Position numbers and translations under genes: made by a program
In this document: positions 39,295 to 46,127 of the stretch, piece after piece
How the letters are laid out: the number at the start of each line of letters is the position of its first letter
Numbering within the stretch: position 1 is the stretch's first letter
Notes under the pieces: model-generated
Database searches by the model: none
What the model saw: the letters and a program-made list of their open reading frames with translations, nothing else
Told to the model about the DNA's origin: nothing
Assembly: GCA_937921695.1 (NCBI GenBank)
Contig: CAKZTZ010000006.1
Span: forward strand, 1 to 64,000
DNA from: an uncultured Sulfolobales archaeon
Lineage (GTDB): Archaea > Thermoproteota > Thermoprotei_A > Sulfolobales > Acidilobaceae
Length of the DNA: 64,000 nt
Reading direction: 5' to 3'

Positions 39295-40645
39295 CTATTG
39301 CTCTCTTATAAGCAAGCCTGCATTTTCAAGTAGGTTTTTATAATCTTCAATGTATTCATAATCTTTGAAAGAATATTTAATTGCACAACCGTTTTCGATG
39401 CAAACTTCTGTGAAATCCATTTGAAATCCCGCATGAGCTATCATTATCCTCTTAACGGGAGGATCTACTTCTTTCTAAGTGTTATACATTGTTCACCTCC
39501 TATTTTCTTTATTTTTCTGCGGGCTTCCTTGCAATGATTTTTCACCACTCTAAACATGTCTGGCTCGTATGTCACTAGATGGCCGTGAACCTCACTAATC
39601 ATATTATAAAGATCCGCTAGCTTACGAAGGCTTTCAACGCTCACAGGCTCTAGAGGGGGGTTTAAACCATCTATAAGTTTTTCAACACTCTTACATGCGA
39701 ATAGAGATGGTAGAATTGCATAAATACTGTTAACATATAGTTCTACGCGTCTTTCCACTCTGGCAGTGCTAGCGACTATATTTATCTTTTTAGTCCACGT
39801 CTCTAAGATATTATTCAATATTTTATCATTGTGGCTACTTAGGAACTCGTAGCAAGAATAGATTAAAGGTAGGGGTAATGGATAGTAAAGTGAAGAGGCT
39901 ACATAGCGTGCTTGATCTAAATACTTCTCATACTCATCTAGATCTTCTCGGAACCCTGCGTCTTGGATGTTCTCACGTTGTTTCACAATGTTACTCGGTA
40001 TTGTGTGGGGTATATGGATGTTGCTTACAATCTCCTTATAAACTATGTTCAGGTTAAGTTCTAGAATGTTGTTTTCTATTTCCCTACACGTTTCATTATA
40101 AACCTTTCTAGGGGTGGGAGGGTAAGGGTCGCTATTGATTACCTCAATAGTTATCCCGGCTTTATTGTTTTTCCCTATTTGCCTTATAGCTGTTAAAGAT
40201 GCGATAGCCCTAGCTAAGTGTAAAGCTATGGATTGCATGAAGTTTATGCCGTGCGTCACGTCGAACACAACTTTTTTATTTGTCTACAATCATCTAATAT
40301 CTTGTCTAGTATTAAGCCCACTTTTAGCAGAGTCTTAGCTGTGAAGTCCCCAACCCCTCCCTTAAACTTCCACCTGCCGCCTGGTGATCCAATGCTAGGG
40401 CTAACAATAACATCAATAGGGGGAGGCTCCTCTCCTAGGTCATTCTTATAAATACATGAAACCATGTGTTTAATGAGATTTCTAACCTTCTCTTCTAGGT
40501 CATCATAGTTATTAAACTTTTCAACTTCGCACATGTTATTCCAGTATTCAGCGTAACATTTACCACACGTGCTCGGAACCTTAATTTTACCCTTGCAAAC
40601 ATCCTCATCTATATCTATAAGACTATCTAGAGTCACTAGTATCAC
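39295..40645 (-). pseudogene. csx1: csx1, CARF-HEPN CRISPR-associated ribonuclease, interrupted by two frameshifts
   Basis: Three consecutive reading frames together make one Csx1 of about 450 residues. The first (40645-40256, from GTG) has VSPSIGSPGGRWKFKGGVGDF and ends in QIKK. The second (from about 40270 to the stop at 39465) continues with VVFDVTHGINFMQ, the hallmark CARF ligand strand of Csx1. The third (about 39478 to the stop at 39295) carries VKRIMIAHAGFQ, the HEPN R-x4-H nuclease motif with its AHAG context. Both junctions need a -1 shift; the first is exactly at A AAA AAG (plus strand ctttttt, 40271-40277), the second in a purine run near 39470-39478. Csx1 is activated by cyclic oligoadenylate made by type III CRISPR complexes. 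No other cas gene or CRISPR array is in the window. It may be a decayed gene, a frameshifting gene, or two sequencing errors. Confidence 0.72.
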
Positions 40646-40653
40646 ACGACTAT

Positions 40654-40668
40654 TTCATATATATACGT
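40654..40668 (-). promoter_or_regulatory. TATA box of csx1
   Basis: On the minus strand cgtatatatatgaaa lies 10-25 bases before the GTG start, indicating a leaderless transcript. The intact promoter argues that the gene is, or recently was, expressed. Confidence 0.5.
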
Positions 40669-40909
40669 GAGTAGTGGTAGAGTGGAGCATGATTTCACCG
40701 ACCCCACTTGTTCTTCAGGAGACACGTATTTGACACAACCCCACATTGAAGGGGAGCCCCATGTAGAAATTATTAGGGTGTTGAAACTCTCTCCGCTCAT
40801 TATCTTCCCTCTCCAAACCCTCTACGTAAAGGGATAGTTAAATTTTAACATTTTGAGTATTGGCTGGCTTTAGTCTTGAGGATAGGGGGTCAGAGCCTGG
40901 GATTATTGA
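40669..40909. other. Intergenic stretch, no gene seen
   Basis: About 240 bases between the divergent csx1 and radical SAM genes. An A/T-rich gttaaattttaac near 40830-40845 may be the TATA box for the gene at 40910. No RNA motif recognised. Confidence 0.4.
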
Positions 40910-42194: not shown

Positions 42195-43265
42195 TTGCCT
42201 CAACCGAGGCCCGAGACAGCAACAGGAATCCACGGGTGGGGCGTCTACGTGCCTAGGTTTAGGATTAAAATGGAGTATATAGCGAGAGAATGGGGCTGGA
42301 GCGATAGCCAGTGGAAAGCCCTAGCTATGATTGAGAAGGCTGTAGCAGGCCCCGATGAAGACTCCACGACAATGGGGTTGGAGGCGGCCGCGTACGCCCT
42401 GAAAAGGGCTGGCGTAGACCCCGGGGATGTGGGCGCAGTCTTCTTCGGGACAGAGTCTAAGCCCTATGCTGTTAAGCCTAGCGCCACTATAATAGCTGAA
42501 GCTCTAGGTGTAACCCCCGTAACTATGGCGAGCGACCTCGAGTTCGCCTGTAGGGCTGCGAGCGAGGGCCTTAGAGCTTCTCTAGGCCTCGTGGCGTCCG
42601 GCATGATTAAATACGCTATAGTAATTGGGAGCGACACTGCTCAGGCTAACCCTGGGGATGTCCTAGAGTTTACAGCCTCTAGCGGGGCTGCAGCCTATGT
42701 TGTTGGGCCTAGCTCTGGTTCGGCCGCTGTATTCGAGGGTAGCTACACTTATGTTACGGACACTCCAGACTTTTGGAGGCGCGAAGGATCACCCTATCCT
42801 AGGCATGGCGAGGGGTTTACTGGGGAGCCCGCTTATTTCGCCCACATAATAGGGGCTGTGAGGGGGTTAATGGATAATCTCGGCTTTAAACCTTCAGACT
42901 TCAAATATGCAGTTTTCCACCAGCCTAACGGCAGGTTCCCCTTGAAAGTGGGGGAGATGCTCGGGTTTAAGCCTGAACAGTTGAAGGCAGGGATCGTGAC
43001 ACCCCTCATAGGTAACACTTATAACGGGAGCGCCCTCATAGGCCTGGCGAGGATCCTTGACAACGCCGCACCAGGCGACAGAGTTCTAGTAGCGCCTTTC
43101 GGTAGCGGGGCTGGGAGCGACGCTTACAGCATCATAGTCACGGACGCTATAGAGGAGAAGAGGGGTAAAGCTCCTAAAGTTGACGAGTTAGTATCTAAAA
43201 AAATCATGATAGATTACTCTACATACGCGAAGTTCAGGAACATGATCAAAATAGTGAGAGAGTAA
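42195..43265 (+). CDS. Hydroxymethylglutaryl-CoA synthase, archaeal type
   Basis: A 356-residue enzyme from TTG 42195 that condenses acetyl-CoA with acetoacetyl-CoA. The thiolase-fold nucleophile is Cys 119 (DLEFACRAASEG), the general-acid His lies in YAVFHQPNGRFP, and the glutamate in GTESKPYAVKPSA. It is the first gene of a tight operon with a thiolase, a DUF35 scaffold protein and HMG-CoA reductase, which together lead from acetyl-CoA to mevalonate for archaeal lipids. In methanogens the synthase, thiolase and DUF35 form one complex that channels acetoacetyl-CoA. Confidence 0.94.
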   Translation: MPQPRPETATGIHGWGVYVPRFRIKMEYIAREWGWSDSQWKALAMIEKAVAGPDEDSTTMGLEAAAYALKRAGVDPGDVGAVFFGTESKPYAVKPSATIIAEALGVTPVTMASDLEFACRAASEGLRASLGLVASGMIKYAIVIGSDTAQANPGDVLEFTASSGAAAYVVGPSSGSAAVFEGSYTYVTDTPDFWRREGSPYPRHGEGFTGEPAYFAHIIGAVRGLMDNLGFKPSDFKYAVFHQPNGRFPLKVGEMLGFKPEQLKAGIVTPLIGNTYNGSALIGLARILDNAAPGDRVLVAPFGSGAGSDAYSIIVTDAIEEKRGKAPKVDELVSKKIMIDYSTYAKFRNMIKIVRE

Positions 43266-43278
43266 GGGGTGAACCCTT

Positions 43279-44415
43279 ATGGCTTACATAACTGGGGTGT
43301 CAATGATAAACGTGGATAGACACTATGATAAGGGGGTTAAAAAACTCGCAGCTGAAGCTTCATCTAAAGCTTTAGAAGATGCTGAGCCAGAAGCTTTAGA
43401 CTACATAGTGGTCTCTTCAAGCTTCACATACGCTAGTGACACCCAGCTAGACTTAGCCTCCTACATAGCCTCATACTCCGGTTTTAGGGGGGTGAGGGCC
43501 TTAACTGTAGAAGCTGGAGAGGCTTCAGGGCTAGCGGCGGTAGGCGTTGCAAAATCACTTATAGACAGCGGCTTAGCCTCCAGGGTTCTCGTTGTAGGCG
43601 TTGATAAGCTTTCAGACAGGCCTACCTGGGAGGTTTACAGGTATTTCTCTAAATTCTATGATGTTGAAGGCGAAGGCATATATAGTATAGGCATGGGGGG
43701 TATAGCGGGGATACTTATGAGGCTTTACATGGAGACTTTCAAGGTAGACAGGCTGACTCTAGCATACTGGCCAGCCCTCATGCACTCCAACGCTAAGTTA
43801 AACCCGTATGCTATGCTCAGGTTCGCCATAACTCCTGAAAAAGTACTGGAAGCCCCCCCTCTAGCTGACCCTATAACGCTTCTCGACTCTTTCCCCTTAG
43901 GCGACGGGGCGGCAGCCCTGGTTATTGAGGGGAGCGGTAAAGGTAATGCTCTCGCAGAGCTTGTAGCTGTAGAGTCGGCTACGGGATATCCTAGTATAGC
44001 CCTAGTAGAAGACCCTCTAAGGATTGAATCTCTTGAAAGAGCTTATCAGAGGCTGACTCGGAAAGTTGACATTAAAAATGTTGACGTTATAGAGCTCCAC
44101 GACTCTTTCACAATAATGGGCATCCTAGAGCTTGAAGCTTTAAGGCTCGCAGAGAGGGGCAAAGCTGCAGAAGCTGTTTCACGCGGATACTTCTCTCTAG
44201 GCGGTGAGGGGCCAGTGGTTAACCCGAGCGGCGGCCTAAAAGCTAGGGGCCACCCTATAGGAGCTACAGGAGTATACCAGGTTGCAGAAGTCTCTCTCCA
44301 GCTTGCGGGCGAATTCCCCGGGCTCAAGGTGCCAGAGTCTAACCACGGCCTTACAGTCTCTGTCAACGGCTCCGGGTCAAACGCTTACATAGCTTACCTT
44401 AGGAGTGTGAGGTGA
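43279..44415 (+). CDS. Archaeal thiolase (acetyl-CoA C-acetyltransferase) with unusual active site
   Basis: A 378-residue thiolase-fold protein from ATG 43279, 13 bases after the synthase. The His motif (ARGHPIGATGVYQ), the NPSGG segment and ELHDSFTIM are conserved. Where the nucleophilic Cys normally sits (ACASG-type box) the sequence reads EAGEASG, placing Glu 81 at that position. Some archaeal thiolase-like proteins vary here, so it may be a family property; otherwise the protein may be a structural partner. Context strongly ties it to mevalonate synthesis. Confidence 0.88.
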   Translation: MAYITGVSMINVDRHYDKGVKKLAAEASSKALEDAEPEALDYIVVSSSFTYASDTQLDLASYIASYSGFRGVRALTVEAGEASGLAAVGVAKSLIDSGLASRVLVVGVDKLSDRPTWEVYRYFSKFYDVEGEGIYSIGMGGIAGILMRLYMETFKVDRLTLAYWPALMHSNAKLNPYAMLRFAITPEKVLEAPPLADPITLLDSFPLGDGAAALVIEGSGKGNALAELVAVESATGYPSIALVEDPLRIESLERAYQRLTRKVDIKNVDVIELHDSFTIMGILELEALRLAERGKAAEAVSRGYFSLGGEGPVVNPSGGLKARGHPIGATGVYQVAEVSLQLAGEFPGLKVPESNHGLTVSVNGSGSNAYIAYLRSVR

Positions 44416-44421
44416 TAGGGT

Positions 44422-44826
44422 TTGACGGGTCTCAGCGTCCCAGCAGTATGGAGGGGTAGGATTCACAGGTATAGGCTCGTGGCGGGTAAATGCAACTCTT
44501 GCGGCAGAATACATTACCCACCTTCACATTCATGCCCCCACTGCGGCTCTAGGGGTTTAGCGGAGGTAGAGCTTCCCAGGATGGGCAGGCTTGTGAGTTA
44601 TAGTATTGTGTACTCTGTACCTTCCGAGTCTAGGAGTAAGGCTCCCGTTATCCTAGGCCTTGTAGACCTGGGTGTGGCGAGAGTTATAAGTGAGATAACA
44701 GATGCAGGCCCAGAAGATATAAGTGTGGGGATGCAGGTCGAGGCTGTTTTCAGGAGGATAACAGAAGATGGGGAGACTGGAGTCCTAGTATATGGGGTTA
44801 AATTCAGGCCGGTAAAGGAAGCGTGA
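44422..44826 (+). CDS. DUF35 zinc-ribbon/OB-fold protein
   Basis: A 134-residue protein from TTG 44422. The N-terminal rubredoxin-like zinc ribbon has CNSCGRIHYPPSHSCPHCGS, followed by an OB-fold (GRLVSYSIVYSVPSE). In the known thiolase-HMG-CoA synthase complex the DUF35 chain holds both enzymes and shares the CoA site. Its place between those genes and HMG-CoA reductase supports this role here. Confidence 0.9.
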   Translation: MTGLSVPAVWRGRIHRYRLVAGKCNSCGRIHYPPSHSCPHCGSRGLAEVELPRMGRLVSYSIVYSVPSESRSKAPVILGLVDLGVARVISEITDAGPEDISVGMQVEAVFRRITEDGETGVLVYGVKFRPVKEA

Positions 44827-46127
44827 GAATCATGCCTGAGGCTGGAAGGGCCGTGGCTGGAGAAGGCTTCAACCTAGAGGAGATCATAGGGAAGATTGAG
44901 AGGAGAGAGTTGAGTATAAGCAGGCTGGAAGAATATCTAGGTAACGCTAACCTAGCAGCCCTAGCTAGAAGGTCTTACATAGAGAAGGCTCTAAGCGTAG
45001 ACTTGTCGGGCATAGCTAGCACTATACTAGACTTCGAGGAGCTCCACGGGTACAACATTGAAAACCCCATAGGAGCCGTCCAAGTGCCCGTAGGCATAGT
45101 AGGGCCCCTAAAAGTTTTAGGCGACTATGCTAGGGGAGAGTTCTACGTGCCCATGGCGACTACAGAGGGGGCCCTCGTGGCAAGCGTTAACAGGGGGGCG
45201 AAAGCTATAACTTCTAGCGGCGGCGCCGTAGTTAAGGTTTTAAAGGATGGAATGACTAGGGCCCCCCTAGTATGGACGCCCAGCGTTGTTGAAGCTTACA
45301 AGTTTGTCGAGTGGGTTAAAGCTAACTTCGACAATTTAAAGTCTAAGGTTACAGAAGTTACAAAGCACGGGGCTCTCATAGATATACAGCCTTTCACTGT
45401 GGGGAACCTTGTGTGGATTAGACTAGTTTACAAGACGGGGGATGCCATGGGGATGAACATGGCTACTATAGCTAGCGACAAGATATGCTCCTACATAGAG
45501 GAGAACTATGATGGAGACGCTAGATGCATAGCTCTCAGCGGCAACATGTGCACAGACAAGAAACCAGCTATTATAAACAGGCTCCTGGGAAGAGGCAAGT
45601 ATGTAGTTGCTGAAGCCCTAATAAGGAGGGATGTCGCCGAGAACATTCTAAAAGCTAAAATAGAGCTAATCCACTACATAAACGCGGCCAAAAACCTCCT
45701 CGGAAGCGGAGCTTCGGGAAGCCCGAGCTTCAACGCCCACTATGCTAACATAATAGCAGCCATATTCATAGCCACAGGCCAGGACGCGGCCCAGGTCGTA
45801 GAGAGTAGCATGGGCATCACCTGGACAGAACTTAGAGGGGACGAACTCTACATATCAGTAACACTCCCAAGCCTCGAAGTAGGCACTGTAGGAGGGGGCA
45901 CAAGGCTTAGAACCCAGAGAGAAGCCCTCTCCATAATGGGGGTTGCAGGCGGCGGGAACCCGCCAGGCGTTAACGCTTTAAAATTCGCTGAAATCGTTGC
46001 AGCTACAGTCTTAGCTGGGGAGTTGAACCTACTAGCAGCTCTAGCATCTGGACATCTAGCTAGGGCTCACGAGAAGCTGGGGAGAGGCCGGGTTAGAGAA
46101 AGTGGGGGTAAACAGTTGAAAGCATAA
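44823..46127 (+). CDS. hmgA: 3-hydroxy-3-methylglutaryl-CoA reductase
   Basis: A 434-residue NADPH-dependent reductase giving mevalonate, starting at GTG 44823 (overlapping the DUF35 stop) or ATG 44832. The catalytic set is complete: Glu in ATTEGALVAS, Lys in CTDKKPA, Asp in ATGQDAAQVVES and His in ASGHLARAH. DAMGMNM and GGTRLRTQ are class I features. It is the last gene of the mevalonate operon. Confidence 0.96.
   Translation: MRIMPEAGRAVAGEGFNLEEIIGKIERRELSISRLEEYLGNANLAALARRSYIEKALSVDLSGIASTILDFEELHGYNIENPIGAVQVPVGIVGPLKVLGDYARGEFYVPMATTEGALVASVNRGAKAITSSGGAVVKVLKDGMTRAPLVWTPSVVEAYKFVEWVKANFDNLKSKVTEVTKHGALIDIQPFTVGNLVWIRLVYKTGDAMGMNMATIASDKICSYIEENYDGDARCIALSGNMCTDKKPAIINRLLGRGKYVVAEALIRRDVAENILKAKIELIHYINAAKNLLGSGASGSPSFNAHYANIIAAIFIATGQDAAQVVESSMGITWTELRGDELYISVTLPSLEVGTVGGGTRLRTQREALSIMGVAGGGNPPGVNALKFAEIVAATVLAGELNLLAALASGHLARAHEKLGRGRVRESGGKQLKA

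Follow-up and report, generated by a model that had tools for sequence, protein, structure and literature searches.

Csx1 is a cOA-activated RNase of type III CRISPR immunity that joins a CARF domain to a HEPN domain, and one continuous coding frame is expected of its gene. Programmed -1 frameshifting has been demonstrated in one archaeal gene, fucA1 of S. solfataricus, where a single shift occurs at about 10% in vitro (PMC8211752). The dnaX site of E. coli is prone to shifting since the sole tRNA-Lys of that species pairs weakly with AAG (PMC5009743). Such motifs nevertheless serve in the IS elements of many bacteria that have both lysine tRNAs (PMC4066793).

The window considered here (the whole 64,000-nucleotide stretch of archaeal DNA that was analysed) carries on its minus strand, at 40800-39295, one csx1 gene that frame reading and profile matches resolve into four frame segments separated by three breaks (Table 1). 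Read through, it is homologous over its whole length to the Csx1 family (CARF9 CARF-HEPN; PDLC01958, NCBIfam TIGR01897 cas_MJ1666, Pfam PF22230/PF09455) and has both DxTHGxN and R-x4-H; it differs from that family in being split over four frames and in the lack of any type III locus found in its genome. The gene is probably a recently inactivated orphan pseudogene, and one probably acquired horizontally. A first-pass annotation had described csx1 in three frames and had offered gene decay as an alternative to regulated frameshifting; the split is real and the decay alternative is supported, but the 5' piece had been missed.

Table 1. Segments, break sites and putative expression signals of the split csx1 gene
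Feature	Coordinates	Strand	Description
Putative promoter and ribosome site	40807..40848	-	Plausible, read by eye: TATA-like TTAAAATTTAA (40848-40838) and GGAGAGGG (40814-40807), ahead of ATG 40800
csx1 segment 1	40645..40800	-	52 aa, CARF N-terminus (CARF strand 1); ATG 40800, stop TGA 40644-40642; PDLC01958 positions 3-41, E 1.6e-7
Break 1	40645..40654	-	Sole stretch open in both frames; no slippery heptamer; loop ~2 aa shorter than in G163
csx1 segment 2	40256..40645	-	Mid-CARF; ORF of 129 aa, of which the read-through takes the part up to 40271; PDLC01958 E 4.1e-17
Break 2	40271..40277	-	A AAA AAG (A run 40277-40272, G 40271), 3' of QI and 5' of VVFDVTHGIN
csx1 segment 3	39465..40283	-	272 aa open frame; D-x-T-H-G-x-N CARF motif, linker and most HEPN helices, without R-x4-H; PDLC01958 E 2.1e-39, Csx1_CARF E 6.6e-9
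Break 3	39465..39474	-	AAAGAAGTAG; in-frame TAGs bound both frames; no classic slippery site; loop ~6 aa shorter than in G163
csx1 segment 4	39295..39474	-	59 aa open frame with HEPN R-x4-H motif RIMIAH (KRIMIAHAGF); Csx1_HEPN E 4.4e-4, PDLC01958 E 2.9e-6

All three joins are net -1 steps. Segment 1 translates from MSGESFNTLIISTWGSPSMWGCVKYV to a closing YIYEIVV, and its stop is overlapped by the GTG start of segment 2 as GTGA (40645-40642, 4 nt). The segment 2 frame runs out at CRQIKKLCST, and a -1 step at A AAA AAG leads from it to KK-VVFDVTHGINF; the frames are those proposed in the first-pass annotation, and the join is gaplessly collinear with homologues (KKVVFDVTHGIN aligned to STLVLDLTHGIN). 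Segment 3 is closed by TAG 39467-39465, which a further -1 step, also correctly placed near 39470 and away from any classic slippery site, bypasses to give RKK-VDPPVKRIMIAHAGF up to the stop at 39297-39295; the RIMIAH reached in this way aligns with R-x4-H of the homologues. No single segment holds both a complete CARF domain and R-x4-H, thus unassisted translation yields no Csx1. The loops at breaks 1 and 3 vary among relatives and, because they are shorter here than in the closest intact homologue (G163), these two breaks may belong to larger length changes. The AAAAAAG string itself is not unusual in the window (9 observed vs 13.4 expected by chance), and collinearity across the joins is the only feature far beyond chance.

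The identification as Csx1, already made in the first-pass annotation, is borne out by all four segments, which match the one PADLOC family CARF9 PDLC01958 in order. Among Pfam and NCBIfam profiles, Csx1_CARF (its motif D-x-[ST]-H-G-x-N being fitted by DVTHGIN) and TIGR02549 (3e-5) are matched over cutoff and CRISPR_DxTHG is also matched; cas_MJ1666 stays under cutoff for the fragments, and Csx1_HEPN falls just under it for the segment 4 fragment (21 bits vs a 23-bit cutoff). The sole PDB match is 4eog (5.3e-9), which we take to be a P. furiosus-type Csx1, the entry itself labelling the protein uncharacterized. Plain concatenation of the segments, with no base altered, gives a read-through of 502 aa, larger than the product of about 50 kDa that had been anticipated. 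It aligns end to end, over 514 columns and at 42% identity, with L067 (G163:C54), an intact 511-aa homologue from the same order that is read in one frame, and at 23-34% identity with further intact homologues. The G163 gene adjoins Cmr-type genes including a 1105-aa Cas10 with GGDD (annotated by eye), in a compact, type III-B-like neighbourhood.

A search of genome and viral contig collections for a close orthologue or strain gave no tblastn-confirmed relative; 60 relatives searched for csx1 gave distant matches only, and the best csx1 identity among 398 genomes of the phylum was 33-34%. The remaining csx1-like matches in the order, from 54 of 214 genomes, almost all consist of a single open frame. 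Two genes that seemed truncated at the same place (G140, G113) were rejected as cases, both ending at or near a contig end, as were two flagged with one stop (G189, G196), which keep one frame throughout the match.

The surroundings of the gene bear on its origin. RAMPs (PF03787), Cas1 (PF01867) and Cas6 (PF10040) were not found in its own genome (87% complete), and Cas10 gave no match over cutoff there; no CRISPR-type direct repeats occur on the contig. Given the 87% completeness, the assembly may have failed to capture a type III locus, and the absence of type III machinery from the genome is likely rather than certain. With none of these components found, csx1 appears to be an orphan lacking a cOA source. 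Two genomes of the same genus (G002 and G003), whose etfA and radical-SAM proteins are 72-76% identical to those of the window, have etfA adjoining the radical-SAM gene with no csx1 between, and no csx1 remnants are present at this empty site in either. One of them, G002, carries RAMPs and, on the same contig, a different csx1-like gene, which shows that type III systems can occur in the genus. The G+C content of csx1 is 0.39 against 0.47 for the window. Together, the lack of cas genes, the empty site in the two relatives and the low G+C suggest that csx1 was gained horizontally and without a local source of cOA. Next to csx1, at 42195-46127 on the plus strand, lies an intact mevalonate-pathway-like cluster with HMG-CoA synthase-like, thiolase-like, DUF35/OB-like and HMG-CoA reductase-like ORFs, as read by eye.

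Such a history would begin with horizontal gain of csx1 between etfA and the radical-SAM gene, after which small indels, at least three in number and one of them in the A run, would have changed the frame and inactivated it recently. Since neither a type III effector nor Cas10 was found, nothing would be making the activator cOA, and selection to retain csx1 has presumably gone. The disablements seen are the three frame breaks, against the single 511-aa frame of the intact homologue; every family-conserved residue is kept (29/29, including D-x-T-H-G-x-N and R-x4-H) and there is no extra in-frame stop. Conserved columns were those shared by 80% or more of 17 homologues, and because all members of this set are intact the test bears on the window copy alone. 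In neutral simulation the probability of keeping all conserved residues without a stop is ~0.30 at 15 substitutions, 0.08 at 30 and 0.03 at 45, and intact residues are therefore likely only where fewer than ~30-45 neutral substitutions have accrued. Exclusive matches to outgroups are about even, with the window copy slightly below G163 against some of them (for example 24 vs 36, 28 vs 44). The lack of missense decay means that the inactivation must be recent or that the breaks are errors. It weighs against the pseudogene reading, as do the 87% complete assembly and a comparison that contains no same-species genome. A second decayed csx1 occurs in the order (G103:C66:1000-3600, L071), in which the HEPN part lies in another frame than the CARF part. 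The two are alike as homologues broken by frame changes, but decay in that copy has gone much further, its motifs being altered and several stops present, whereas none of the conserved residues is lost from the window copy.

Local error is the main rival to decay, though an unlikely one: the real csx1 would be intact and the three breaks would be errors or collapsed strain variants in a metagenome-type assembly. The genome is a draft of 34 contigs, all breaks are of the same net sign and size, break 2 lies in a homopolymer, and the preserved residues and lack of other stops fit an intact gene. Breaks 1 and 3, however, lie outside homopolymers and coincide with multi-residue loop shortening, and three errors clustered in one gene of 1.5 kb are improbable. 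The error background was judged from ORF inspection within the window, where no other gene pair among 64 non-overlapping gene-sized ORFs (89% of the window) looks split by a frame change; general sequence error is for this reason an unlikely cause of the csx1 breaks.

Programmed recoding, in which a shift at A AAA AAG, by -1 frameshifting or by transcript slippage, would combine with further shifts to make little full-length Csx1 and so limit a toxic RNase, is less probable still. The break 2 heptamer does sit in slippery register, protein sequence constraint is retained in the csx1 segments, and both fucA1 and the window csx1 are archaeal genes interrupted at an A-rich slippery run (PMC8211752). 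But fucA1 has one break, flanking signals conserved in close relatives and a demonstrated product, whereas the window gene has three breaks and no conserved signal. Recoding here needs three shifts and two of the three sites are non-slippery, the heptamer being present at break 2 only; with some 10% per shift in series, full-length protein would come to about 0.1%. About 35 homologous loci, none of them from the same species, were compared codon by codon in the stretch leading up to DxTHGxN; neither a break nor the heptamer occurs in them at the break 2 position, and the idea of a conserved shift, for which the first-pass annotation had proposed orthologue comparison, was rejected on this check. 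Shuffle-based folding without pseudoknots gave no stimulatory structure 5-9 nt downstream of the breaks, the RNA there folding no better than shuffles (z -0.39, -0.61, +1.25), and immediately upstream no SD-like sequence can be seen. The genome encodes tRNA-Lys(UUU) as well as tRNA-Lys(CUU), and the presence of the latter weakens the dnaX-type slippage argument; this point is not absolute, since having both tRNAs does not keep many bacteria from using such motifs (PMC4066793). Moreover, no type III machinery to activate Csx1 was found. The regulated frameshifting first suggested for this gene is thus poorly supported.

Slightly less credible again is production of the segments as separate proteins, by coupled reinitiation at the GTGA overlap, that then reassemble. 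A 4-nt stop/start overlap of this kind, as at break 1, is typical of coupled archaeal genes, and a GTG also falls within the overlap at break 2. A GTG start in segment 3, however, drops residues before or within the DxTHG strand, and a product begun at the first ATG of segment 4 would lack the R of R-x4-H and with it the nuclease motif; homologues, moreover, show no splits inside the Rossmann fold at three points. The least probable reading, an orphan Csx1 nearly silenced by several successive recoding events while selection keeps residues in all four segments, would be, to our knowledge, the first multi-shift control of a CRISPR effector.

If the locus is a recently inactivated pseudogene, CRISPR signalling loses an attractive but weak case of regulated frameshifting. 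The locus would also be one modest indication that csx1 passes between archaea and degenerates where no Cas10 signal source accompanies it. Elsewhere in the window, a small plus-strand ORF (34-432) contains tandem 33-nt units at 184-345 that encode repeated coiled-coil-like R-[IM]-D-D units.
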